Shown here: one piece after another, positions 3,520 to 59,000 of the stretch
Numbering within the stretch: position 1 is the first letter of the stretch
Layout: each line of letters starts with the position of its first letter
Assembly: GCA_950295325.1 (NCBI GenBank)
Contig: OX485807.1
Span: 22,663,666 to 22,727,665 of the forward strand
DNA from: Polytrichum commune
Lineage: Eukaryota; Streptophyta; Polytrichopsida; Polytrichales; Polytrichaceae
Direction: 5' to 3'
DNA: 64,000 nt
The notes under the pieces: generated by a model
What the model saw: only the letters and a program-made list of their open reading frames with translations
Databases searched by the model: none
Told to the model about the DNA's origin: nothing
Made by a program: the position numbers and the translations under genes

Positions 3520-4960
3520 AATCACTCTCACTTAAACCCATGCAGGGTACAAGAGCTGCACTTGACCGTGCTTGCACCCTCGTTCCTAAAAAGTCTGAAC
3601 TTGGTGATGATTCATTCTCGTTCCTCATGAAATATACCCAACATTTTTGTTGTAATCATCGAGAAAAGACACCAAGTATCGATTTGTATTTTTTTATTTT
3701 TTTGGTCCAAAAGATGTGTTTGTCCCCATATGTCCGCATGTGTGAGCTCAAGTGCATTCTTGCTCATGGCTTTCATGGTTTTGAAATTTGTTCGGCATTG
3801 CTTCCCCTTGAGACAAGCCTCGCATGTGTGCTTGATCAAAGGCACTTTTGGCACTCAAGTGACTAGCTCCTTTTTTGGTCACGTAGTGCAATCTCGGAAA
3901 GTTTGTATGTTCTAACCTTTTATGCCAAAGGATGTTTTTATCAACTTCAGATGTGCTATTTTGGTAAGGTGTATACTCTTTCTCTTTTCCCAAAACAAGT
4001 TTGAAAAGACCATTTTTCTTGTCCCCTTTGATCTTCATGAGATTCTTACTTGGTTTATCTCTCTCAACCACTTTGCATTCACCTTCAAGAATATAATTGA
4101 TAATATTATAGTTCAGCTATTGCAATGACATATAAAATAATTGTCTTGAGACCAAAAGACGTAGAAAACTTTGGGGATAGATTTTATTTTTCAAAAACTA
4201 GTTTTCAGCTCAACCTTTCCTATTCTTCCAATCTTGTGGACTTGACATTGACCCCTCTACTTTTCCGTCTCATGTTTTAGATGTTATCCTTCCAACATGT
4301 GAAGTGAGTGCTAGTTCCTGAATCAACAAGCCATTCTTCATCAGAGTCTTACTTCATGGTAATAAGATATGCTTCAATCACGTTGACAACTTTCTCACTA
4401 GACTTGCCTTCCTCTTTACTAGAATATTGTTGGAGTTTTCTTTAGTTGAGTCGATCTTCTTATCTTTGACAATATGAGTTTGGTTTTTGGACTTGACTCT
4501 AGTCGCAACTCCCTTGTCTTTCTTCTATGTAGCTATCTTCCTCTTGTACTCCATGGTGCCTTCATTAACATGGATATCTTGACATTCTCGTTCCTAGTGG
4601 CATGCTTGGGGTCTTATATCTATTGCAATTTCTAAGTTTGGGTTTCCTCCTAAATGTGCTAATAGCTTGGGGTCTCTTTGGTCCTCCTTTGTTGAAGCTT
4701 TCACCATGAAGACCTTTGCATCATCTTCATGAGTTTGCAAGGTAGCTAATATGATCTCCTTCTAAAGCAACTTAGCCTTGAGATCTTTGAACATGGGTGA
4801 AATTTTTGTTCTTGCTATAACAAATGTGAAGGACAAATAACTTCTTGGTAGAGCATTTAGTACTAGGTCGATCATATCATCATTAGCAACAATAGTCCAT
4901 GTTGAAAACAACTTGCTTCTCAAATCTTTGATTTTGACAAGAAACAACTCCATCCTTGTC
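3520..4960 (-). pseudogene. Ty1/copia retrotransposon fragment (gag to integrase), decayed
   Basis: Minus-strand pieces follow copia order. At 4953-4762 is a gag segment of the UBN2 kind (MELFLVKIKDLRSKLFSTW, then NALPRSYLSF). Around 4550-4640 is a frameshifted zinc-knuckle remnant with a recognisable ERECQD tail. At 4071-3748 is the GAG-pre-integrase motif LWHKRLEHTNFPRLHYV. At 3854-3612 is CEACLKGKQCRTNF followed by LELTHADIWG, the zinc-binding end and first catalytic Asp of integrase. In another frame comes RYLVSFLDDY, the region of the second Asp. Stops and frame changes separate the pieces. No reverse transcriptase, RNase H or LTR was identified, so this is a truncated fragment. Confidence 0.85.
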
Positions 4961-11079: not shown

Positions 11080-13879
11080 TCAAGGATTTGTGGCCCTTCC
11101 ATTTAACCACTTCCATCTACGGGGTGGGAACTTATTTCTCTTGTAACCTTCCCATCCAGCTGCCAAAACCACCCAACCCTTCTCTTGCAATAGGTCTGAT
11201 TCCCTCAGTTCCTCTAAAGTTGGTGGTACTTCCAGCCACGACTTGCCTTCCAGAAACTTCTCAGCATCCCGATATGCATCCGCTTCTTCAGCTGTGAGTT
11301 GATGAGACCAAGGAATGCGTGCCGTGGCATTAGCTCCTGGGCCAGAGCTATTAAATTCAGCAAAGAAAACATGATCATGGGCAAACAAAGGGCCTGAATC
11401 TGTCAGCCAGTCCACCCAGCCCTCAGGCGCAATATGCTGGCCCAAGGCTGTATCAATAATCACTACTCTTGCATACTCCCGCCATGGTCGGCCTAAATAT
11501 GTGAGCCCTGTTCCAGTGGATTGATAGTTTGCCAAATCATATCCAGTCACATTTGACCTTAATATAACAAAGGTCGACTTCAAGGCCTCGGGGCAATTAT
11601 TGTCACACCATCTACTCTGAGCAGTAATAAACCCCTCCCCTGCACATGCATCACAAGATTGAGTCCATATACAAACCTAATGGATAATATCATAAGTCAG
11701 CACTTCATCGTGGTGGGTCACCTACAGTCACTGAAGGGGAGTTTCAAACACAGCTACTCAAGTGATTGTGGTTTAGGCCCACTTTCCACCATAACTAAGA
11801 CAACTATGATTCATTTTGTTCACACAGCATGTACTTGAAGATTGACTTTGAACTCAATTATCCTCCCTCTTATTGGTGCAATTCGTGGAGTGGAAACAGT
11901 GATTATAAAGATTCTAGTGCAAAGTTTGTCCTAGAGTGATTACCTCCCTACAAACTTTCTCCTATCCTTTGGCCTTGAAGTTCTGTCCTGGAGCCACCTT
12001 GTAACTACAAACAAAATGGAACCAAAGAAATAAAACTACGCCCACTCCCAAGTACACCTTGTATCGTGGCTGGGCAAGTAAGAGTAGTTGTGGTTGGAGT
12101 TGTCATGAATGCAACTTATCCCTCATCCCTCAAATGTGAAGCCAGAGAAAGTAAACTACAACCATCAACCACCGAAACGGTAGTTGTGTGTAAACGCCCC
12201 TTGAGAAACTATCACGTTTGACTGAACCTGGTTAACTAATACCATATAAGTGGTGACAGAATAGAGCGCAGGTTTGCCATGGTGAAAGACATACCTCTTG
12301 AGTAAATAGTGCAGTTCTCAAAGACTGCACATGCATACCCAAGGATGAAGTCAACATTTCCTTCTACCCTGCAATCCTTATAGTACTGCTTGCCCTGATC
12401 AGCATACAAAGTATCTTGCCACCCCAAGAAAATGCAACTGTAGAAAGCGCAATTGTCTCCCGAAACGCGGATAGCCGGTGCTTGCGAGTTGTAGTCAAAA
12501 TCCACAGGCTTTGGAGCACTGTTTTCAAAGGTGATACCCTTGGCTACAAAGTAAGAGCCCTCCACAATCACAGATGGACAGTCAAGTATCGTGTATTCTT
12601 GGCCATCAGGTTTCCTATCGCATGCCTTTCTGTTGAAGGTCAAGACTGTGCTCTCCGCACCCTCACCCAAAAAGGTGATGTAATCCTGCAGTACATCCAA
12701 CAAAGAATGATAACTTAGCGAGAGATCTGCCCAACACTAGCCCCACCTGGAAAGTGGTCGACAATATTACCAATTCAGGTGACTAGTACGACCAGGTGGA
12801 AATTCACACCAATGTCACATACATTTAAGCTCTTCCAGAGGAAGGGAAGAAAGAAAGAAAGAGAAATAAAAGAAGAAAAAAGAGGTGTCGAGGTGCTTTT
12901 TGCAATGTATTGAGATATATTGCCATCGGGGACCACGGAGAATCTGCACCATTCTGATGTTCACATGAAATTGAGCGTCTCCAGTTCCGCACATTGCTCA
13001 CATTTTACTCGAGGGAGACATGAAGAGTGGCACTTCCAGAGACAGGCATCTCTTAGGATTGGAGACTTTTTCATGTTGCATGGTCTGTGGAAGCACCGCT
13101 TTTTCATTGTTCACGTTTTCATATTCTGGCCTTCGGAGATTTGGAGTATCTCTCGCTCTCGATCCTTTTTGATAGAAAATTGCAAGAAGTGGAAATGCAC
13201 TTTCCAACCCCCACAGCTGGGAGAGATGCTAACTAGCTCCTGACCCACTTTCCTGAAGAAGCCTGACATGATTCTTCATGTAAAGAAGCTCAAGCACCTT
13301 ACGAAGACAATCTTGACGAGCATTATGGTAGTATGAAGATACATGATGTTGCATACTTCACATGCCCAGAACATGCCATTTCGAAAACAGAATCTCAGAC
13401 TCGATTGAAGACACCTCGCCTATTTTCATTTTGAAGTTTTATCTCAACTCAACCCCAATTTCTTGCGAAATACTTCACGTAAGTAGGCGGAGCCGAAATA
13501 CCGACGACGAGAAATGGCGCCCTTGAAGAGCTCAGGAAAATGGCGAGAAGATGTTTACCTTGCCTTCAGGGACAATTACAGGGCCGTAATAAGTTCCCGG
13601 CTTAATGTAAATCACCCATCGCAGGTAGTTCCACATGGGGACGGCATCTACCGCCATTTGAACGGATGCGAAGTGATTCGGATGCCCATCGTTAGACACC
13701 ACCAACACCGTCTGGATGCTTTGAGCGCCGACTCCATCTTCGGCCGCCAACAGCCGCCTTGCCACGCCTTCTGAAGCTTCCAAAGGGCGGCTGCTTCTGT
13801 GCGTGTCACGACTCCATGCCGCACTAGGGAACAGGACCACAAGGAGCAGGCAAACAAAAATGGCGGTAGCGTAATGCAT
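11080..13879 (-). CDS. Pectin methylesterase (pectinesterase), secreted, three exons
   Basis: Coding exons are 13879-13559, 12685-12295 and 11639-11080. Donors are GTAAAC and GTATGT, acceptors CTGCAG and TGCAG, phases 0 and 1; the product is 423 residues. It should de-esterify cell-wall homogalacturonan. The N-terminus MHYATAIFVCLLLVVLF is a signal peptide. The first family motif GxYxE is altered to GTYYG (about residue 95). Then come SQAPAIR (Q175, normally QAVAL), GWQDTLY (Q197, D198), GNVDFILGYACAVF (D219) and YLGRPW (R288), so the catalytic Asp pair, the Gln pair and the Arg are kept. There is no N-terminal PMEI domain, so it belongs to the short class without a pro-region. About 45 residues follow the usual family end. 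ATG at 13879 is the first Met of the frame and opens directly into the signal peptide. Confidence 0.93.
11735..12204. mobile_element. TIR element inside pectinesterase intron 2
   Basis: The left end AAGGGGAGTTTCAAACAC (about 11735) and the right end GTGTGTAAACGCCCCTT (about 12181-12197) form an imperfect inverted repeat of about 17 bp. The roughly 460-bp interior has no coding capacity and fills most of the 655-bp intron. The termini resemble the Harbinger-like ends seen elsewhere in this window. Target duplication is not clear. Confidence 0.45.
12832..12888. repeat. Purine-rich low-complexity tract in pectinesterase intron 1
   Basis: A GAAA/GAAG-rich stretch of about 55 bp on the plus strand lies within the 873-bp first intron (12686-13558). 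On the transcribed strand it is pyrimidine-rich. Confidence 0.6.
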
Positions 13880-13989
13880 ACGGAACAAAATGCTCCCTAC
13901 AACCTGCTTTCGAATTCCGACTCACCCTCCCTCCCACTTCGCCACAGATAGACGACGAAACACAAGCAAGCAATCGAGGAGTAATCTCT

Positions 13990-16440: not shown

Positions 16441-16709
16441 TCTAGGGTGACGTAGATTGGAGGATCTCAACCTTTTCGACCAATGAAAGATCTTCGTCAA
16501 TGCAATGTGCCACATGCTTTCAACCTCATGTATGAAATAGCCTTTATTTTCAATGAAAAAACTAATCATCGTATTTTTATGTTTTTAAGACCATAAATCG
16601 GAATGCGACTTCCATCTTTTACACAGATGAAATCTTTTTAAAATACACATACACACACTTCAAAAAATCTCAAGAATTGAATGAAACCGACAAATTTGGG
16701 ATGAATGTA

Positions 16710-17275
16710 CAGTAGGGTCCAAGGCAGAATGGCGTTTTTGGTTTCCTAGTGGAAAAAAATTCAAATCTGCCCACTTTGAAAGCCTCTAGAGAGATCAAAA
16801 ATTAGTATTTTACCTTGAAATTTTTACCATGAACCTGAAATCAAGTTGTTAGTATGCCTACCAAACTTCAAAACCAAATAATTCACCAAAAAAAAGTTAT
16901 TCAAAATCTACCAATATACTCCGTAGGTAGCTATGGAAAAAGTTTCACTCCTACCAACTTCGACAGCCTCCCAAGAATTGAAAAAAAAAAATCCTTACTT
17001 TGATGTTTTTTTGGTAGAAACTAATTTGTATTAGTAATATACGGTAAAAATATGAAGTCTAAAGATTAGTAAAAAATATATATTCCCAATCTACCAACAT
17101 GTGTTATTTTGCGATATACTTATGGAAATCATTTTCACTACAACCAACTTTGACACCCTCCCAATGGCTAAAAAATGGCCCATTTTGCCATGAAATTCTT
17201 GTCACAAGATAAGCTACATGTTAATGACAAGTTTACCAAAGTTCAAGCTTAAAAAACTTACACAAAAATTTAAGA
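16710..17275 (+). repeat. Left long terminal inverted repeat of the Tc1-like element
   Basis: Its inverted partner is 18688-19244. The arms keep blocks such as TTCACTCCTACCAACTT with GACAGCCTCCCA, and GACACCCTCCCAATGGCTAA. Divergence between arms is obvious by eye, so this is an old copy. Confidence 0.93.
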
Positions 17276-17670
17276 ACATTCAAATTTAACTGTGCGCACT
17301 TGTCACATCCCAATTAATACACTTGCTAAGAATTTGAACACCACATACGCATGAAGGAGCTTTTGTTCTCTACATCAATGCTTGTTTTGAGAGTTGAATA
17401 TTACAAGTGACTTGTAGAATGTGTGATGATTTGAGAGGGCTTATTTGAAAGCAAAGGTATGCACATGGTGATGTGGGAGTAAGAGTATGCACAAGAAGGT
17501 TTATTTGAGAGGAGAGGTCTACACATATTGGTTTAGGAGTGAAGGTATGTACAAGCTAATTTGGGAGCACATTATGCACATCAATGTTGATTTGGGAGGG
17601 GAACATGTATGAACATATGATTAGGTAGTTAAAATTTTAGATCAAATTCTCAAATTAAAAGTTGTGATTG

Positions 17671-18678
17671 ATGTCTATCCCAGATGAAATTCGTGCACAT
17701 ATTGTGGGTTTGAGTGAGAGAGGGAAGAAAAGAGTTGAAATTGCAGCTATTGTTGGAGTCCCTGTTAGAATAGTTCAGAGGTTGGTAAAGAAATTTTGAG
17801 AAAATAGAACCTATAAAAGCAAAACGTGTGCCAAAAAATATGGAAAAAACTTAGTGATAGAGATGTTCGTGGTATAAAACGTGTTTTACAAGTTGATCGT
17901 CGCATCACGCTCTCTGACTTTACTAATATGTGTCCTACTAAAGTATGTAGAAATATTATTCGAAAGACTTTACATGATAGTGGCCTTCACAGTCGAATTG
18001 CAGTAAAAAAAATATTTTTTTACACCTCGCCACATGTCTCAACGATTGGCTTTTGCTTAAAAGTATTGTCGATGAAGTGCAAAAGATTGGGAGCAAATTG
18101 TTTGGATAGATGAGTCCTCTTTTGAAGTTGGAAAAAACTCTAGACAAATTCATATTTGGAGAACTGTGTATATGAGCGCTATGCTTCAAGTTGTATAGTT
18201 TCAACTTTCAAGAGTGAGAGGTCTTCTTTGATGATTTGGGGTGCATTTTCTGGAGGGCAAAAATCACAACTTATTTTATGCCTAAAGATTGGTGTTCTGC
18301 AAAGGATTTTGTTGAAGTGGTTTACAATGGAGAGTTGCTTCATTTTATGGAAAAGTACCACAATGATTATTCATGGAAGATGGTGCATCTGTCCATAGAA
18401 GTAAACAATGTGAAGAATTGAGGCAAGCACACCGTCTAGAGAAGCATAATTGGCCCATAAACTCTCATGATCTCAATCCAATTGAGAATCTTTGGAAGAT
18501 TTTGAAAGATGCAGTTCAACATGGTTCAATATGCCCTAAAAATACAAGTGACTTAAGAGTAGTTATTGCAAGAGAGTGGAAGATTATTAATGGTCAAAAG
18601 CTCCTTCTGCTATGTCATTCCATGCCTACTAGGTTACAAGCAGTGATAGAGGCAAGTGGAGGACATACAAGTTGGTAG
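17671..18678 (+). pseudogene. Tc1-family transposase, DD34E, broken
   Basis: The start MSIPDEIRAHIVGLSERGKK is a Tc1-type helix-turn-helix, followed by GVPVRIVQRLVKKF and an in-frame TGA at 17797-17799. A second DNA-binding part lies at 17850-18000 (LSDRDVRGIKRVL, then RKTLHDSGLHSR). A frameshift sits in the A-rich run near 18008 and more stops follow. The catalytic core is legible across frames: VWIDESSFEVG (first Asp codon at 18109), MIWGAFSGG, MEDGASVHRS (second Asp at 18379) and HDLNPIENLW (Glu at 18484). Exactly 34 residues lie between the second Asp and the Glu, the DD34E signature of Tc1. It would cut and paste the element at TA. No continuous frame survives. Confidence 0.93.
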
Positions 18679-18687
18679 ATTGTGAGT

Positions 18688-19244
18688 TTTTCTTTTGGGT
18701 GTAAGCTTTTTGAGCTTGAATTTTGGCACACTTGTCATTAACATGTAGCTTATTTTGAGACAAGAATTTCATGGCAAATGGGCCATTTTTTAGCCATTGG
18801 GAGGGTGTCAAAGTTGGTTGTAGTGAAAATGATTTCCATAAGCATACCGCAAAATAACACATGTTGGTAAATTGGGAATATCTTTTTTTTACTAATATTT
18901 TAGACTTGAGATTTTTACCATATATTAATAACACAAATCTCTTTCTACCAAAAAAACATCAAAGTAAGGAATTTTTTTTTCAATTCTTGGGAGGCTGTCA
19001 TAGTTGGTAGGAGTGAAACTTTTTCCACATCTACCTATATTGGTAGATTTTGAATAACTTTTTTTTGGTGAATTATTTGGCTTTGAAGTTTGGTAGGCAT
19101 ACTAACAACTTGATTTCAGGTTCATGGTAAAAATTTCAATGTAAAATACCGATTTTTGATCTCTCTAGAGGCTTTCAAGGTGGGCAGACTTGAATTTTTT
19201 TCCACTGGGAAACCAGAAACGCCATTCTGCCTTGGACCCTACTG
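18688..19244 (-). repeat. Right long terminal inverted repeat of the Tc1-like element
   Basis: Inverted partner of 16710-17275. It ends in the exact complement of the left terminus and is followed by TA. Confidence 0.93.
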
Positions 19245-19370
19245 TACATATAGATACATAGATTCATGCATTCTTGTTCATAGATTAGTCTCACCATAAT
19301 AAATGTTGTCAATTCGACTATGTATTCCCAACTCATTGACCCAACAACTAGATTCGTGTGTAGATTGGAG

Positions 19371-19876: not shown

Positions 19877-22829
19877 TCACCATGCACTCTCATCCTCAAA
19901 ATATCCTGCCTCCTCTAGCTCATCCTCATGGTCATCAAGGATCTCATGCTCCTTGTTGAGAAATTCCACCACATTTGTAGAAGCTAGCTCGCATGCACTT
20001 CTCGCATCTGTAGGCCAATTCTTATAGATCATGATAAGACCATTCACATTCGAAAGACCAAGGCGGCAATGGCGCAAACTTGTCAGAACTCCGACAACAC
20101 TGAAGATTCTCTCCATTTCAATATGAGAACCAGGGATACCAAGAAATTGCCGTGCCAAATATCCAAGGGTTGGAAATCGAGTAGCATTTGCATTCCACCA
20201 TGCCAATGGTGAGGTTGCCTCCTCAACTGGAATCTGTAGCCGTCGAAATAAAGAAACTTCAGCGACAAGGGTACCTTCACAAACTTCCTCCAGAGAAGTT
20301 GCATCTCCAAACAAAATAGAAGACGGAAGGGGTGCTTCAACACATGCAACTACTCCACCATGATGCAACAGTTTGTACACCTACATAAAAAATAAGCACA
20401 ATTTTATTAGCTAACACATATGAATCATGGAAACCTAGTAATAAACAAATATAAAACATTCACAAGATCCTGAACCAACAAAGTCAACTCATAAAACCAA
20501 TACTGAACTACAATTCTCATGCAATTAACTTCCTATGCAAGCTTGGAATGGCACAGAATCCACCTTAATCCAAAACAAACCAAACATCTAAACTTCATCA
20601 ATCGATCCTCACAGCAAAATCAGCTCCCATGCAAGCCCGGAATTGCACAAGATCCACCTTAATCCAAAACAAACCAAACAACTAAACTTCATCAATCGAT
20701 CTGGACAGCCAAATCAGCTCCCATACAAGCCCAAAATTGCACAGAATCCACCTTAAACCTCGTCATTCATCCACAACATCAAATGCCAAAAAAACCACCT
20801 ACACAAATAGTCGAACGACAGACAACAAACGACAACACAACCAACATGATCCACAACCAAAATTCAGAACATAAACTCCAGAATTGTGGACGGAATAGGG
20901 AGCCGAGAAATGGAGTGAACTACACATTCAAGATTGCAAAAGAATTTGGACATTGTACCTTCACCAAATAAGGAATGAACACCTTCTCATCATACTCACG
21001 TACAATCGCCCGGGCCTTCTCAACTCATGTGTACACAATCACACATTCCAGGCCCTTGAAGTGGGGATCTACCATGAGTACAATCATGTTGTGAGTCTTT
21101 TCCGATATGAAGGTCTGGGTGAATGAGAGGAAAGGCCTCATGACAAGCATCGCCTCCAAAAACATCTTCCCCCGCAAGATCTCGAGCTCGGCATCAAAGT
21201 CACCGTGTTGCAGCAGAGGATTCATGTTGCTGAGGTGATCAATATGAGCACCAAGCTCCACCGAAATAGCCAATGTTGCTACCAAGGCATCCGATAATAA
21301 GCAATAGCCCCGTGTTTGATTCAAAATGCAGTACTTTAGAACTCAATTTAAGGTTTCGGTGATTGTTCGAGCCACTGCCCAAGTTACCCTTGTTGGTACT
21401 CGTGCTTGCAATTTCAAAGACCGAGTTGCATAGCAAATATTAATTGCATCAGCATACTTTGAGGTTTCTTGAAAGAGAATAACCTTCAATGCAAAACGAG
21501 TTTTCAACGGCGTTCTCAGCTTCCTCGCAGGTAATCCAGCCTTGATGCACGTTTTCTTCCATTCCGCCCCTCCCTTTCATGACTTCTTCGTCCACGTAAT
21601 GCACAACTGCAATGCAGCTTGAGCGGATCTCAAGGACAATTCTGTCATCTCCCTACAAAAAAAATCATCATCTGTAGCATATTGACATGTTTTGGACATG
21701 ACATGTCCAAAACAAACTCCAACATAAGGTTGCTTAATGTCTAAGACATCACATGATATTGTGAGCTGCAATGCGCGCTCAAGTGTAGTCGAATTAGAAC
21801 CCTCGTCTTTGATCCAAACAAGTAATTTTTTTGTCAACTGAAATTCATCTAGCAAAGGTTTGACTATTTCAGCAAGAGCAACACCAAAAGTATCATGAGC
21901 CTCAACAAACCGATTGTCACATGCCACGGTTCCCAGCAATCATTGATGAAGTTGACAACCAAAGCAAAAGTGTCGAAGCCAGCTCTCGACATTCACAAGT
22001 CGAAGGTAATCAACGTTGTCGCACAACTTGCAATTGCAGGAAGCACGTACCGTTCCATCATCTTTGCAAGAAGTGCAAGAATGTTCTCATGCACAAGCGC
22101 CTTCCGGGTTCGAAATTTCACCTTTGGATCTCGGCGCATCACCAATCATCACAGCCAAGGGCTCTCCACCACCGCCAATATCTCGTAACCCTTTGCAATG
22201 AAAAACACAAGGTCCTCAAGAAAATGTTTTTGTTGAACGTCACCTTCCTGATAAAACTTTTGTTCGGCGAAAAATTCTGTAATGGCCGAAGGCTGAACAA
22301 CTTTCCTCTTCTTCGTCTTTTGGTGCGTTGCCCCCGACTCCTCCAACACTGTCAGCGATGCCTTGTACCTCTCAAACTTTGATAAGTGCTCATTCACCAC
22401 GTGGTTCTTCATGCTCGTCAACACGTGTAGAGGATTATACTGCAAGACACCCTTTCGCTGGCTTGTCACACTCTGCGAACTAGAAGAAGACGTCGCATTG
22501 GTAGGGTGAGAGGTTGTGCACTTCATCACATGGATCGCTTTGACGTCAACTTCTACGCCTGGCTCTTTCAATTTGAAGAAGGCCCACACCAAAGATTGTT
22601 GGTGATAAGGTGCCCAAAAATGTCGATTACTTGTCAATGCAGTGAGAAGAACCTACCACGCAACCTCAAACTCTGAAGCCACTTCATTTGACATTGTCGG
22701 CAAACAACCCACTGTATTCACCGTCTTTGTGCAATCTGAATCAATCAAATTCACTGTGTTATTAGAAAACCCAACATCCATACATTGATCTGCAACAACT
22801 TCCATCGAAGTAGGTTGTGAACCAGACAT
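19877..22829 (-). pseudogene. hAT-family transposase, broken
   Basis: The frame starts at ATG 22829 (MSGSQPTSMEVV) and meets an in-frame TAG at 22655-22653. A BED-type zinc finger follows (FFKLKEPGVEVD, VMKC, MKNHVVNEHL; 22637-22380). Frame is lost near 22155. RRDPKVKFRTRKALVHENIL and MMERYVLPAIASCATTLITF follow, then a TGA replaces the Trp of DLWMS at 21995-21993. Frame changes again near 21905 before HDTFGVALAEIVKPLLDEF and WIKDEGSN. After more breaks, an apparent intron (20958-20381) precedes the C-terminal dimerisation domain at 20380-19877: SPLAWWNANATRFPTLGYLA and SHIEMERIFSVVGVLTSLRH. Domain order is that of hAT transposases, which catalyse cut-and-paste movement. Confidence 0.92.
20541..20765. 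repeat. 94-bp tandem repeat inside the hAT intron, about 2.4 copies
   Basis: GCACAGAATC / GCACAAGATC recurs at 20551, 20645 and 20739, exactly 94 bp apart. Each is followed by CACCTTAATCCAAAACAAAC and a CTTCATCAATCGATC block. It lies within the presumed transposase intron. Confidence 0.88.
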
Positions 22830-23288: not shown

Positions 23289-23936
23289 TAAGGCCACTAC
23301 ACACACGAGACTGAGAGCCCGTGACCAGTACACTTCAAGCACTCTTATTGGTGAAAAAGGTGGAGCCGGTCCAAGTTTGCTTCACACTATGCTTGAGGGA
23401 CCAACGGAGTAAGTGATTGCAAGATCGATGTAAAGTCCACGTGGATTCCTACATGGCATCTAATGGATCATGTTTCATGGTCACTTGGATTATTTTTAAA
23501 AACCACCTCTTGGAGGTAGGCCTAACACAAAACTAGGAGACCATGGTACTCCAAACATTCATAACCGTTCGTTTATTCTATTTTATCATGTGTGAGGACC
23601 CACATGAATAGAAATTCATTGAAATAGCATTTGGTTAAGGGCATGGTCAGAGATAGATGATAGATAGAAACTCCGGTCCCTTTTTAGCAAGGGGCCGGCA
23701 TGAATAAAGTGTCCGTTCGTAATGTCAATGACCCGATGCCCACCGGACAAGGGGACATTGGGGCATGGTCACATATGACTTCACACTACACTTTGAGGGG
23801 TCCATGACCACACTACATGATTATGGAGGTGTGTTGGGACAGCCTTTGGACACTTTCTTTTGGGCTCTCACAATTTCATGGTCATGGTTCTTGGCTCGTG
23901 TGTAAAGTGGCCCTTAGTACAATGCTTTTGAATAGA
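23289..23936. mobile_element. Harbinger-like TIR element, copy 1
   Basis: The left end is TAA then GGCCACTACACACACGAGAC. The right end is CTCGTGTGTAAAGTGGCCC then TTA. The interior matches 41135-41644 and 41709-42200 (shared GGAGCCGGTCCAAGTT, GATTCCTACATGGCATC, CACCTCTTGGAGGTAGGCCT). This copy has an extra block near 23650-23765 not seen in the others. No coding capacity. Confidence 0.82.
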
Positions 23937-33861: not shown

Positions 33862-34187
33862 TGCACTAAATAGGATATTTAGTGTTGGATACACTAAATA
33901 CAAATCATACCCTAAATGTCAATAACCCTATGAAAGTAAGTAACATTAAATGGTAAACTCAAACACTAAATATCAACTATGGTAATATGTGGAAGTTACA
34001 TGTTTGAATTTAGTGTTAGTAAGGATATGAAAAAAAAACAAAAAAAACAATGTTAAAAGGAGAATTCCAACATATCTTCTAGCATATCTTCTAACACTAG
34101 TTGTTAAAAAATTGAAAATTAGTGTTGAGCATGTAGGGTGGTAACAACATTAAATATAATCAAACGCCAAATATCCTATTTAGTGTA
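33862..34187. mobile_element. Palindromic-end MITE, family PalA, copy 2
   Basis: This copy is inverted relative to 606-929. Ends are CACTAAATAGGATATTTAGT and its inverted form ATATCCTATTTAGTGTA. A stretch of more than 60 bp (from CAATAACCCTATGAAAGTAA through AACACTAAATATCAACTATG) is identical to the complement of copy 1, so the two diverged recently apart from a small difference near 34050-34090. Confidence 0.85.
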
Positions 34188-35207
34188 GTGAACATTTCCC
34201 ACTAGTTGAATGCACGATATCTCCAATAAAATAAACATTCTTGTGCTAAACATTTCACTAAATCTCGCAAAAATAAGTTCAATGAAGAAATTTGTACTAC
34301 ATTCAGATAATTTACACATATAATGTCTTAAAAAGATATTGAACTAATTTTAAGACATGCGTAAATTGATAAGAAATGCACATTAACTGAAACTTGATTG
34401 CAAGAACCTTTTCATGATCATGTACAATGTGGAAATTAATGACCCGTATGTGTCCTCAATTAATACAAGTATTCACTCAATCTAACATTTCTTTTATGTA
34501 TTGTCCATGTATTGCCATAATCAACTCTCATGTTTTGAGACATCACATCTCTACATGTGCCTAGAACACCCAAAAAGATCTAATGTGAAGTTATTTATTC
34601 TTGATTTATGAAGATTTTGTTTCATTCCAACCTACAAAAACACTTGCACGAGAGTACTTGAAAATACCAATTACATGAGACCCATATTGACATGATCATT
34701 AGATGGACATGTACTAATGAGTTTGCATCACAAAGTTTTTACATCCTAGCCTTCCAACCTTCCTAGTATATGGACCCACAAAATTAACGTTTACGATAGA
34801 TCATGTGGCTCGCACTTATCAAATCAATGTGAGATCATGCAACATACAAATTCCATATGCAAATGGTATAAGGGTTCAAGTGAGAAATGAAAGTATTACA
34901 ATTTTAATATCTCACATCCATAGTCCCAAGCAAGCAAGGATCGGATTGTAAACAAGAGCCCGTGCCTCCCTCTCATGCATGGACGACCGATAAGTTACTA
35001 GAACATAACACTTGACCATGTTCCATTACCGCAAGGTATGCAGTAAACTCTATCATGTACCGAGGATTCTCAAACATGCAAGACCAATGAGTTCAAATCC
35101 ACGTCAGTAAAAGCAAGGTTGTTTTGAAATTTTCTTTTTCTTTTTCTTTTCTTTGCTTATGTGCAAATCCACAATATTTGTGGACCGTTCAATTTGGAAG
35201 CACACAC
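34188..35207. other. Intergenic, nothing recognised
   Basis: AT-rich, with a T/CTTTTT-rich stretch at 35128-35155. No gene supported. Confidence 0.45.
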
Positions 35208-35593
35208 TACACTAACTATCGAATTGAGTGTCACCAATCCTATCTATCTTGCTCAATACGAGTGTCCATGTAGTGTCACCAACACTAAATGTAAACCTAA
35301 CATTATTTGTCATTTTTCATTCATTTTTTTTTTGAAAAAAAATCAGGCATATAGATTTACAGTGTTGCAATTATTGTCACTTACTAAGCGGATTTTTCAT
35401 CCAAATTTCAATCATTCATGACAAAATTTCATTATAGAAATATCAACATACTAGATATACAAATTAAGAGTGGATGAACTAAAATAAGCTAGGATGACAA
35501 ATTTTGTAAAACTTATTCATAAGAAGGGTAATTAGAAAGAGCTTTTGTAGTGACATCAAATAGCATATGACACTAAACACAATGTTAAGTGCA
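35208..35593. mobile_element. Palindromic-end MITE, family PalB, copy 2
   Basis: The ends are eroded (TACACTAACTATCGAATTGA on the left, GACACTAAACACAATGTTAA on the right). The interior matches the other copies: GTGTCACCAATCCTATCTAT, CTTGCTCAATAC, CACTAAATGTAAACCTAACA, TTATTTGTCAT and CATCCAAATTTCAATCAT. Confidence 0.78.
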
Positions 35594-38500
35594 CATCCCC
35601 AACATTACATTCGAAGCGGCCGGGCTCTTGAATATGTTTCATAATGTGACTCATGGCACTTATTTGTGGAGAAATATCTGGCCTTGCAACTTGTCTCCAA
35701 GTAGTCTTTGCATGTGTCTTGGACCTTTATGTTGACTCTTGGAACGTGTAGCTTAGGAACTTACCATGGACATGCAAAGGTTTGGCCCCACAAGGATTTT
35801 AAGCCCATTTTATACTCGACGTTGAATTGGGGGCCGGCCCAAACTCTAAAAATTTCAACCAATAGGATTGCTCAATTTCATTAGATCCATACCAAGGGCT
35901 TTATGCACCCTAACTTCTGTAATGTCGCTCCCTCTCGTATGTTCCAAAACCCTAGGGAACTTACGTGCTTAATTAAAGTCTCCCCTCCTCGTTGCCCCAT
36001 TTCCCTCCCGGATTTCATGGGTTTTGACATTAAAATAATATAGCAAAGAATTTAAGCCACACGCTCGCATGCATCATGTTGTCATCATTGTCATATTGCA
36101 ATGTTGACTTTGTTTTACTCCGTAATGTCACGTGCTACACTACTTCTCTATTATTACACGTCCAAGTTAACATCACAAAACCTCCTTAATATCACATGCA
36201 CTTTGCTTGCCACATGCATGATATTAGGAAGGTTGGAGTGTATTGGGGTTGGGTCCGAACATTTATTGTCCAGGTGGCATCTTAGGATGCAAAATTTTGG
36301 CGCCAAATTTTTGGGCCAGCTTAAATAAAATGGGAGAAGGTTTTCCTTGGCCCTAACTCTCAAAATGGGTCAAACTGGGCTCATCCGTTGGATAATGAAC
36401 ATCTCTACCGTTGATTCACATAAGGTTAAGTCCCTTCATTAAACTTTCCTCCCAAGAACACCGAGACCTAAAATTGGGCCTCGTCACTTTACATGAGACA
36501 AGGTCGAGTCCAAAAAAAATTGGGTTGGATTGAGGGGTTAATGCTTGACAATTGGGGTGGTGCTCGGGCCTGCCCCATGCCGTGTATAAAGTCACCCTTG
36601 GCTTCTTGAATGGCTTGTGAAGTGACTTTGGAAAAATACTTACACCACTTTGACCAATAGCAATCTCAAATTCACTGTATGTTCCTTTAAACATATAGGG
36701 GATATATAGCTAAGGTCGAGTGGGTAACATTAAGGTCCAAGTCCATTGACTAGGACATAGGCAAAATGCCTCCCCTTTTAAAAGCTCATCACAAGTTTTT
36801 GGCCTCCATAATCCACAACAATATGCAACATCAAGGTGTTGTACCCTAGCATTGGGATTTTTGGGAGCACCATGACTCATTTATGTTGCGCCATCTTCAC
36901 ATAAATGAACAATATGCAATTACTACACCTCTCACTATGTGAAGGCAAATCGACTAGTGGACCTCCTAGGCTTCCCCTTACCAAAACTTATCCAAATTTT
37001 AAATCATAAGTCTTGTTGTCAAATTGCATGTTTGTCACGCAGGGTATGGCACCGGCATTGGCATGGCAAGTTACTACAAACACCGGCCATGAATTTAGAC
37101 CACAACCAACTTCCCCGTTTAAAAAAAAGACTTTCATCTATAGGTTGTGTAATGTTATGTCACGAGATTTTATCTTGGGAAGCCTTTAGTTTGAGGGAAA
37201 GTTGGTGAGTATATTTGTGAACGCAATCGACCCCACCCCCATGGTGGTCCGTTTTTTGTGCTCGAGTTACCCAAATTTGGCAACCCACCACATCAAAATT
37301 CTTCTCATTTGACTCACGTCCATGTTGGGGTGCCAAACTTTTAAGGGTTAAAGAACTTACCATGCATCTCATTCACCCTCACTATACTTATGTGGACGAT
37401 GGTCGCTTCGTTTGTAAGGATGGGCATGGGGCCATTGTTGGAGTGCATGAGTTGCACAAGCATATCATCGCCGAGGAATGTGATGCCAAAGTGAGCATCT
37501 CTTGTTGTTTTCGTAAACTTGTTGAGCTCAATTTTTGTCCTTGCTAGGTGAGAGTGGGAAGATGGTGCTAGCATCAATGAACTACTATGGTAAGCAAGGC
37601 AAGTCCTTATATTTGGTAAGACCACTCTCAGGTTTACCGTTGAGGGATAATTAGTCGCCATTTCTTCATGGTTTTCAATTTACGTGGTCCAAAGTGTGGC
37701 ACGAAGAAAACATTGGGAAGAAGAAGAAGAAGAAATTGGTTTTATGTAGCCAATGTGACACGGAGCGATCATTGTCAACCTTTGCTATCTTAGGGTTTTG
37801 CTTCTGTCACCATGTCACGTGTACAGTGCACCCTCATGCCTTGATCACACCAAACTCTCCATCCGGTTCCGGCCGTGAAATTGTTGGAGATTATGTTAAG
37901 AAATAGATGTTGGTCCACCACTTTTCACATTATTATAATCGGATATGTTGATGGATGGTGCCATAAATGGTTGGTGTGATCAGCTACTCCATGCCCCCAA
38001 AAGACGAAGAACCAACAGAAAACACTTGATGTGTCGACAAAGTGTTTTGGTGGATAAACCCCCGTCAAATTTGAACAAACTTAATATTAGCAATTAGCAT
38101 GATATTGTTCAACCATATAGTTTGTGCTTCAAATTATGTGGTTTTGCAAGAACAACAAAGTCTTCAATTGAGAATCCTAGGCTATTGCCAAGCTATATAT
38201 TATTGTGTGGCAACATGTCCAAGGACACACGTGCCTTATTATTGCATGGACAAAGGTATTGCAAAAGATCAAGTCCACCATAACATGTGAAGGTTGGTAT
38301 CTTGAGCAATTTGACCAAACTTGGGGTCTCTATGAAGTCATTTGCAATTGCCAAGTGGGAGGGCATACGGTTTCCTTTGTTGGCTTTGTCTGTAGAACAG
38401 AGACTATGCATCGACTTTTCTGTTTCAAGAGAAAATTTTGTAACCACTTTGCGTTCACACTTGGACGTTTCTTGTTCTTGCTATTTTTGGTCCATTTTAT

Positions 38501-41134: not shown

Positions 41135-41644
41135 CTAAGGCCACTTCACACACGAGACTGAGAGCCCGTGACCGTTACACTCTAAGGACTCTCATTGGTG
41201 GAAAAGGCGGAGCCGGTCCAAGTTCGCTTCCCACTACGCTTGAGGGATCAACGGAGTATGTGAATGCAAGATGGATGTAAAGTCTACATGAATTCCTACA
41301 TGGCATCGAATGGATCATGTTTCATGGTCACTTGGGCTATTTTCAAAAACCACCTCTTGGAGGTAGGCCTAACACAAAACTGGGAGACCGTGACTCTCCG
41401 AACGCTCATAATTGTTGGCATGTTCTATTTTATGACGTGTGAGGACCCACGTGGATATAAATTCATTGAGTAAGCATTTGGTTGAGGGCCTAGTTACATA
41501 TGACTTCACACTATACTTGAGGGTCCGTGACCACACTACATGATTTTGGAGATGTCTAGGGACGGCCTTTAGACACTTTCTTTTGGGCTCTCACAATTTC
41601 ATGGTCATGGTCATGGCTCTTGGCTTGTGTGTGAAGTGGCCCTA
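41135..41644. mobile_element. Harbinger-like TIR element, copy 2
   Basis: The left end is TAA then GGCCACTTCACACACGAGAC. The right end is CTTGTGTGTGAAGTGGCCC then TAA. The TAA flanks are direct repeats, as for PIF/Harbinger elements. The interior of about 500 bp matches copies 1 and 3. No coding capacity. Confidence 0.85.
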
Positions 41645-41708: not shown

Positions 41709-42200
41709 CTAAGGGCCACTTCACACACAAGACTGAGAGCCCGTGACCAATACACTCCAAGCACTCTCATTGGTGGAAAAGGCGGAGCCGGTCCAAGTTC
41801 ACTTCACGCCATGCTTGAGGGACCAACGGAGTAAGTGGATGCAAGATGGATGCACAGTCTACATGGATTCCTTCATGGCATCAAATGGATCATGTTTCAT
41901 GGTCATTTGGATTGTTTTCAAAGTCCACCTCTTGGAGGTAGGCCTAGCACAAAACCCAGGAGACCAAGGCACTCCGAACGTTCACAACCGTTGGTTTATT
42001 CTATTTCATCATGTGTGAGGACCTGCATGAATAGAAATGGCATTTGGTTGAGGGCCCGGTCACGTATGACTTCACACTACACTTGAGGGTCCGTGACTAC
42101 ACTACATGATTTTGGAGGTGTCTTGGGACAACCTTTGGACACTTTCTTTTGGGCTCTCATGACTTCAAGGTCACGGCTCTTGGCTCATGTGTGAAGTCCC
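41709..42200. mobile_element. Harbinger-like TIR element, copy 3, tandem with copy 2
   Basis: The left end is TAA then GGGCCACTTCACACACAAGA. The interior matches copy 2 in the same orientation, and the end is GGCTCATGTGTGAAGT, where the terminal GGCCC is lost. Only about 65 bp separate it from copy 2. Confidence 0.82.
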
Positions 42201-44683: not shown

Positions 44684-45048
44684 TACACTAAATATTATAT
44701 TTAGTGTCACCAATTCTATTTGTCTTGCTCAATACTAATTGTAAGCTGCTCAAGTGTGGTGTCACCAACACTAAATGCAAATGTAACATTATTTGTCATT
44801 CCTTGTAGAAACTTTGGCCATTGTAGATAATACAATGTTGAAATTATTGTCACTTCCTAAGTGATTTTTCATCCAAATTTCAATCATCCATGACATTAAT
44901 TTATAATAGAAATGCTAGGATGCAAAATACACCGTACTTGTAAAGTTGAGATGATAATACTTGTAAACTCATTCATAAGAAGTGTCATTAGAAAAGTTAC
45001 CACAATCACATAAAATACCATATGACACTAAATACAATATTTAGTGTA
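44684..45048. mobile_element. Palindromic-end MITE, family PalB, copy 3 (best preserved)
   Basis: The left end ACACTAAATATTATATTTAG then TGT is a perfect 23-bp palindrome around its centre. The right end CACTAAATACAATATTTAGT then GTA is nearly so. The element is 365 bp with TA at both edges. The interior matches 2390-2766 and 35208-35593. Confidence 0.87.
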
Positions 45049-45109
45049 CTTATTTGCAACCAAAGTGTGTAACTTAACTTTTGTCATCACAAGAACTCAA
45101 TGATCTTCT

Positions 45110-56000: not shown

Positions 56001-59000
56001 CCAATCAGGATGAGATTTCCTCTGATGGAAGTGGAGATGCCTCTGCATCAGGTGAAGCTGGTGATGCGGTAACTACAAATGGCACACGTGAGGGAGCTGT
56101 AGAGGGGGGAATGTACTACATGGGCGGCATGAATGCTTATCCACCTCATGGCTATATATATAACTATCCTCAAGGAGGTAAATTTGACTTTGTTCTTGCT
56201 CTTGTAAAATGCCTAGAATCAGTGAATTTAACGACTCATTGTTAGAGCTATCCGCAGTGGCATATAAGTAATATGAACCCTACTGTTTACACTAGGGATG
56301 CCATAAACAACTGGCTCATGACCATTGAATCTACGACAAGTTGAACTCTGTGTTCTCACTCGTAAATCTATTGCAGGTTTCGAGTCTCCAATGGGTGGTG
56401 AATGGGATGAGTACTCCACAATTGTTGTTGATGGTGTAGAGCATCCTTCACCTGTAAGTAACTCAGAAGCCAAACCTGTACCACTCATGGGATTCAGAAC
56501 TTCAACAATCAACGGTGGAAGATGCGTCGCCATATAACAATTCTTTCAATGCGTGTATCCTCTTTTTTGCTGCTCACTCTTCTGCCTTCACACTGCATTT
56601 TGTGGTCTCATGCTGTTTTGGTTGGCTGTGTACAGGGCGTGTATGGTGAGGCTGGTGGCTCTGTGTTTCTACACGCCACTGGCTATGGGTATGCGTCGCA
56701 GCCATCTTACAGTCCTTACAATCCAGGAACACCTATACCAACAATAGGTGCAGACGGCCAGCTCTATGGTCCCCAGGCTTTCCAGTACCAAAACCATATT
56801 TATCAACAGCCTTTATCTCCAGGTGCCCAGTATATGGCTTCGCCCAACGCAGTGGCAGGTGGAGATGTTCCTTTGTCAGGAACCGGGGAGCCTACCCCTC
56901 CTGGGGTAGATGGCAAGATTACAATGTCAAACGGTGGCCCGAGACCTGGTTACCCAGCAATGGCCCTCATTCCTCCGCATGGACCTTATGGCAGAGGTGT
57001 TTTACCTCTAGCAATTCATACCCCAGGTTCACAGGACGTACGCTATGAAGGATTGAGGGCTGCAGCACCCTCCTGGGCGGATGTGACAAAAACGACAGAT
57101 GGGCAGCAGAGACTAGGGGTTCCATCAATGGCTTCTCAGCAGTTGTCTGCCCCCGGAGTTCCTGCCCAGTCATTGAGACATATCACACCCTTGCAGGTGA
57201 GACAATTAGCTGAGGTCCTGGAGATAAATGAAGTGCTAGTAGGGACTGCATCAGGGGGAGAGAGTGTGGTCTCCCTTATGGTTTAGGAAGCGGTTAATTT
57301 TCAAGATGTCTGTGTGACTATGCTTCGTGGCCGAGTCTGCATTTCTTTCACCACACTACTGCAGTGGATAACCCTAAAAACTTGTTGTGTTCCTGGTGGA
57401 AGGTTGGGGTTGGGAGAGCAATGCCTGTCTACAACTAGAACCTGAAGTTATGAGGTGTCATGTGGGTGCAGGTACATATCCAATCACCTCAGCACCAAAG
57501 AACACCACTGGGGCTGGCATCACCCAATCTGGGTCCCGGGAGTCTACCAAGGGGATACCCGCCGCTGACCGCAGTCATGAATGGTCCCGGCGGTCCAGGG
57601 AGAGCTCGGGGGAATGCATCAATGGAGACAAGGCCAAATGGTCGCGGAGGCTGGATTGGCATCGACAAGGGCAAGCAGAGAGGAAGAGGCGGTGGAGGTA
57701 TTGGCAATACTAATGGTGGTCTTGATCCTTTGAACGAGCAGAACAGAGGACCCCGAACAATAAGAAACAGGAACCAGAGGGCAGTACCTGGTGGAGTAAT
57801 GAGACACACGAGAGGACAGGGTGGAAACTCATCAGGGATTGGCGATCCTCAGAATGGTTTTGCAAACAGAGATCAATATAACAAGCCGGACTTCATCACA
57901 AACTATGAAAACGCAAAGTTTTTTGTGATCAAGTCATATAGCGAGGACGATATTCATAAGAGCATCAAATACAATGTGTGGGCTAGTACTCCAGTGGGAA
58001 ACAAAAGGCTGGATTCTGCATACCAGGAGGCTTTGACAAAGTGCAGCGGGGACACAAATAAGTACCCTGTCTTCCTCTTCTTCTCGGTAAGCTCTTGCAC
58101 AACCTGTTGTTGTGCTTCCTCTGGGTTCAAGAGGCAGGCCCTGTTTGGTGCATTTGTTCTCTGCATTCCTTTTGCAGGCCTCCTCCAGTGGATGTGTGCA
58201 TGGACTGTAGTGTAGCTTGTGAGCATTCTTTTCTCCCAGGATTGCTCTTGCTTAACAGTGCGGATCACTGAACGTCAAACATGGGGTGGAGGCCTTTGTG
58301 CTGTACTGCGCCGGGAAGCTTTATTGAGAATATCTACATTCTAAATATATCAGGTTTGAGGTACTGATATGATCCCAACCATTGCTCAGGTGAATGCAAG
58401 TGGGCAATTCTGTGGGGTGGCCCAGATGACCGGGCCTGTTGATTTTGCTGAAAGCGTGGACTACTGGCAGCAGGACAAATGGAACGGTCGATTTCCTGTA
58501 GCATGGCACATTATCAAGGACATCCCTAATTGCCAGTTCCGTCATATCATTCTGGAAAATAATGACAATAAGCCTGTAACAAATAGCAGAGACACGCAAG
58601 AGGTATACCACCTCACAAAACAGTTCTGAAATTGAATTGTGGGATGGCTATTGCATTCATGGGTAAATGCTACGGTGAATCCAGCTTATTTACCAGAATG
58701 TCTTCCTCATGCATGCCATGAATATGAGGGAAGCTGCATATCCATGTTTCTGCAGATTAATTCTCACACATTTCAGCCTCAAATCCACAAAATTCATCAT
58801 TAGAGTTTCCTTCGTGATGCAAACTATTTATACCACTCATAGATCTTGTGGGATGATCAGGTCAAATTCGAGCAGGGTACTGGAATGCTGAATATCTTCA
58901 AGAGCTATTCGTCTAAAACATCTATCTTGGACGACTTCCAATTTTATGAAAACCGACAGCGAGCCTTGACAGAGAAAAGAGCCAGACAGCAGGTTCAGCA

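Follow-up and report, generated by a model that had tools for sequence, protein, structure and literature searches.

The locus raises the question of how a transposon with ends more than 500 bp long is built, to which class it belongs, and whether it is native to the plant in whose assembly it lies. We analyzed a 64,000-nucleotide stretch of Polytrichum commune DNA, referred to here as the window, in which a Tc1-like element of 2,535 bp occupies positions 16710-19244, flanked by two TA dinucleotides. Judging from its sequence, the element is very probably one copy, now decayed, of a cut-and-paste DNA transposon of the Tc1-like (DD34E) kind: it has the DD34E triad, CAGT and ACTG ends, and a flanking TA duplication. 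Its traits are each already known separately, and the interest that is left lies in the build of its arms. Its standout trait is its very long ends, each of which consists of three diverged tandem repeats of ~185 bases.

The element begins with CAGT at 16710 and finishes with ACTG at 19244, and the two copies of the TA target site duplication lie at 16708-16709 and 19245-19246, so that the TA flanks named in the initial annotation are indeed present. The left terminal inverted repeat (16710-17263, plus strand) starts with CAGTAGGGTCC and is 554 bp long; the right one (18699-19244, minus strand) is 546 bp long. These are the exact lengths of repeats that had been put at about 560 bp. In the arm alignment, 511 of 545 aligned bases were identical (93.8%), with 34 substitutions and 4 gap events; 20 of the substitutions were transitions, 4 of them in a CG context. 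By BLASTN, which counts flank bases and gaps over 560 columns, the identity was 92.1%. Chance does not account for arms that are this long and this similar. The 559-bp BLASTN repeat takes in five flanking bases, namely the TA and the ATG/CAT outside it, which pair by coincidence. As a result of this pairing, the empty site modelled by joining the flanks across one TA reads ATGTACAT, an 8-bp palindrome. The chance of three extra pairing bases per side is ~1 in 64, and the palindrome is therefore only weak evidence for a target preference. Within the window, the left arm had no further copies besides the element itself (BLASTN, E up to 0.01), and the transposase read-through matched only itself (E up to 1).

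Each arm was resolved into three modules. From the outer end inward, those of the left arm lie at 16709-16898, 16893-17089 and 17081-17272 (plus strand), and those of the right arm at 19050-19244, 18872-19061 and 18683-18880 (minus strand). The modules were delimited by comparison with one another and by their matches to a profile made from all six, matches that arise by construction. The match of right module 3 (repeat family D2) ends 5 bp past the transposase stop codon. In each of the six within-arm module comparisons, the observed local score was reached by none of 500 dinucleotide shuffles. When the window was searched with the six-module profile, it returned all six modules, again by construction, and a single further stretch below threshold, at 4766-4843 (E 0.022). 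The modules share a core around a CCTC motif, which is found at positions 79, 263 and 453 of the left arm and 79, 256 and 446 of the right arm, counted from the outer end of the repeat as cut. The cores are thus spaced 184 and 190 bp apart on the left and 177 and 190 bp apart on the right, a range of 177-190 bp.

The outermost 35-45 bases of left module 1, the tip, are absent from the other modules. A search of the arm for the terminal 20 bases gave at best 12 of 20 matching positions, no better than shuffled sequence (mean 10.7, maximum 14). With no second copy of the tip in the arm, the repeated core starts 35-45 bp inside it. This is unlike Sleeping Beauty, in which the outer direct repeat sits at the tip, and it is for this reason that binding of transposase to the modules is put forward by analogy: the modules may be transposase binding sites.

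The modules could also be a satellite-like expansion within the arms that has no role in transposition, and we give this reading somewhat less than an even chance. The failure to find the tip repeated in the arm speaks for it, as does the spacing, since satellite and nucleosome lengths are comparable to 177-190 bp. It is less easily squared with the fact that the module set and its order are common to both arms, which are 93.8% identical, nor does it sit well with Bari1, in which three direct repeats per arm are described as binding the transposase (PMC3828361). A bolder reading is that a plant Tc1 lineage evolved arms built wholly of three ~185-bp modules, each with a core for protein binding, the cores being spaced about as far apart as nucleosomes, which would let transposase or a host protein read the two ends while the rest of the element is packed into nucleosomes. 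We regard this as speculative and unlikely; were it true, the IR-DR design known from animals would exist in plants on a larger scale.

Between the left arm and the transposase, the 5' leader contains a short tandem repeat (17434-17555, plus strand; period 60, 2.0 copies; family D4). The transposase is a pseudogene, which the initial annotation did not mention. It occupies 17671-18678 on the plus strand, reads from an ATG at 17671 to a TAG at 18676-18678, and is interrupted within 17671-18675 by three in-frame stops and five changes of frame, along a frame path that is our own reading, guided by alignment to Sleeping Beauty. The motifs WIDES, MEDGASVH and HDLNPIENLW, on which the initial annotation had relied, are all in the sequence. 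They hold the codons for the first catalytic Asp (18109-18111), the second catalytic Asp (18379-18381) and the catalytic Glu (18484-18486), all on the plus strand, and the three residues align with those of Sleeping Beauty. The second Asp and the Glu fall in the same open piece (18367-18675) and are separated by 34 residues, as had been claimed; because the spacing is read within a single unbroken frame, it is independent of the frame joins.

Domain searches agreed with this reading. On the read-through, DDE_3 scored 56.8 bits (Pfam cut-off 28.6), HTH_Tnp_Tc3_2 46.4 (31.5) and HTH_23 27.0 (24.6), which gives two helix-turn-helix domains of the Tc1/Tc3 type at the N terminus; HTH_SB was under its Pfam cut-off for the transposase. 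When the pieces were searched unjoined, DDE_3 (47.2 bits) and HTH_23 (30.1) were above their cut-offs, HTH_Tnp_Tc3_2 (29.9) was just below 31.5, and two of the five pieces were without any match. The nearest solved relative was Sleeping Beauty SB100X (E 8e-20), matched over residues 108-334 (227 residues) at 27% identity. Together, the triad, the domains, the Sleeping Beauty match and the 554- and 546-bp repeats support the initial annotation in calling the element Tc1-like and DD34E and its arms very long.

A live element would have encoded a transposase of roughly 335 residues, with paired N-terminal helix-turn-helix domains followed by an RNase-H-type DDE domain. The protein would have bound both arms, excised the element at its CAGT termini and integrated it at a TA, in this case the one within ATGTACAT. 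At landing, the arms would have been near-identical and the gene intact or nearly so, with decay in the absence of selection to follow. Assuming that the arms were identical when the element landed, the per-base change probability since then is 0.031. At that rate a gene of 1,005 nucleotides is expected to gain 1.35 stops and 3.65 gap events, every gap being counted as a frame change; the 3 stops and 5 frame changes seen have probabilities of 0.15 and 0.30, respectively, of being reached or exceeded. The damage to the gene thus fits neutral decay at the rate of the arms from a working or nearly working gene at landing, a result that is a consistency check and not a proof. The element is unable to make transposase now. 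In principle, its ends could be moved by a living relative, given one in the host. Were transcription to run through the element, its long arms would form a hairpin.

Did the element come from elsewhere? Horizontal arrival, for example from a plant-associated fungus, is in our judgment possible but doubtful. The words around the catalytic residues of the transposase presumably resemble those of fungal elements, which would favor such an origin. The Tc1-like elements published from plants have a patchy distribution, as reported in 2014 (PMC4054914), and horizontal transfer is frequently invoked for the superfamily, according to a 2020 survey (PMC7325037). Against this, the matches listed from viral contigs, genome contigs and plasmids included no relative close enough to argue from; eukaryotic genomes as such are outside the scope of these collections, and an absence from them is silent on plants or fungi. 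Among viral contigs, none of 3 and none of 125 candidate stretches were confirmed as relatives of the transposase. Genome contigs contained at least 10 IS630-like loci at 25-40% identity; the 10 listed were all in bacterial records, and two of these were from Acinetobacter, the genus of an IS630 element that a 2023 report describes as homologous to Tc1 elements of fungi (PMC9977792). The plasmid search gave 35 records, all under 60% identity to the transposase.

A plant context is plausible and has indirect support from the surroundings, for the window also contains genes for a pectinesterase and a YTH-domain protein, along with a hAT remnant and a Copia-type fragment. These were found with Pfam: the pectinesterase exons on the minus strand at 11083-13921, the third of which scores 24.3 bits and misses the cut-off of 27, a YTH exon at 57454-58212, a hAT C-terminal dimerisation domain at 19880-20380 (minus strand; 42 bits) that adjoins the Tc1-like element, and the weak Copia-type fragment at 3751-4116, which is under the cut-off. 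Of 287 window fragments of 60 amino acids or more, 20 were scanned with Pfam besides the transposase pieces, and 6 of the 20 matched. Comparison with solved structures was not decisive on this point: the best pectinesterase match was 1gq8, which we take to be the carrot enzyme, followed by others; the best YTH matches were named YTHDF proteins, and the YTH sequence looks, we assume, plant-like. We found no feature in the window that fits a fungus or an animal better than a plant, and no match to structured RNA families. A chimeric or contaminated contig, with an element that is not of plant origin, is highly improbable: such a reading can appeal to the single assembly on which the analysis is based, but the element sits within its own TA duplication between the pectinesterase gene and the hAT remnant, the sequence is unbroken, and the decay of the gene matches that of the arms.

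Several other repeats were seen in the window. A MITE-like repeat of ~500 bp with ends GGCCACTTCACACAC and its reverse complement is present in three copies (41135-41637, 41709-42197 and 23289-23921) that are 83.6-87.8% identical in pieces. A repeat of ~325 bp has inverted copies at 606-927 and 33864-34187 (83.6%); the copy at 606-927 adjoins the complementary ends TACACAAAATATGAT and ATCATATTTTGTGTA, as in a short inverted-repeat transposon. There is a tandem array at 1015-1315 (period 92, 3.3 copies), and a dispersed repeat of ~400 bp occurs at 2395-2777, 35206-35594 and 44689-45057, with pairwise identity of 71-72%.

It is highly improbable that a plant mariner (DD39D, PlantMar) or another mariner-side element has been mistaken for Tc1: mariners belong to the same superfamily, share the TA target and are described as more common than Tc1 in flowering plants (PMC4054914), but the third residue is Glu at a spacing of 34 in an unbroken frame and not Asp at 39, HTH_Tnp_Tc3_2 is above its cut-off, and the best relative, in a comparison that covered solved structures, is Sleeping Beauty, which scores far above Mos1, the latter being absent from the single-sequence matches at E up to 10 and scoring no more than 22 bits (E 7e-4) even when Sleeping Beauty was part of the profile.

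Taken as a Tc1-like transposon, the element can be compared with several known systems. Sleeping Beauty SB100X (5cr4) is of vertebrate origin; its catalytic residues align with those of the element at 27% identity over the aligned part, the significant match is limited to the catalytic domain, and the match to the DNA-binding fragment (5unk) reaches E 1 only. The bacterial IS630 model NF033545 matches transposase residues 8-304 at 64.2 bits, under its equivalog cut-off of 100 bits, and the element differs from that family in its long inverted repeats and eukaryotic setting.

Closer in host are the DD34E Tc1-like elements with CAGT ends and TA duplications that were reported in 2014 from the moss Physcomitrella and nine angiosperms, in the latter mostly as fragments (PMC4054914). 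The initial annotation had suggested that DD34E in a plant would mark an unusual lineage or a horizontal arrival. The 2014 report weakens the idea of an odd lineage, since the DD34E triad alone does not make a plant element unusual. As described there, PpTc1 and PpTc2 of Physcomitrella and the angiosperm elements share with ours the DD34E triad, CAGT/ACTG ends, TA duplication, a plant host and a transposase of about 335-340 residues, a comparison that we made by published description only. PpTc1 and PpTc2, however, are given as 1,584 and 1,709 bp long with 33-bp inverted repeats (PMC4054914), as against 2,535 bp and 554/546 bp here. Our searches of open-licence papers turned up no plant Tc1-like element with long three-module arms. 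Our element reveals no new mechanism. Plant Tc1-like elements are thinly documented, going by the same report (PMC4054914), and a copy close to full length that retains its two ends and its target site is a template for finding more.

The arms had also been called an order of magnitude longer than usual for Tc1. This holds against repeats of 12-28 or about 30 bp, but not across Tc1 as a whole, for the 2020 survey records repeats of several hundred bp in some Tc1 elements, such as Minos (PMC7325037). For the ciliate Tec elements it gives about 700 bp (PMC7325037). The nearest counterpart in design is the IR-DR group (Bari, Minos, S, Paris, Sleeping Beauty), whose members, in the published accounts, have DD34E and two helix-turn-helix domains, as the element does, and inverted repeats of 200-250 bp with three direct repeats per arm that are bound by transposase (PMC3828361, PMC4120734). 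The element shares the design of long inverted repeats that each carry two or three direct repeats. It departs from the group in that its arms, at 554 and 546 bp, are over twice as long as 200-250 bp, the three modules take up the entire arm, and the repeated core starts 35-45 bp in from the tip. With their three modules, the arms are a case in which the scaling of end recognition in Tc1 elements can be put to the test.
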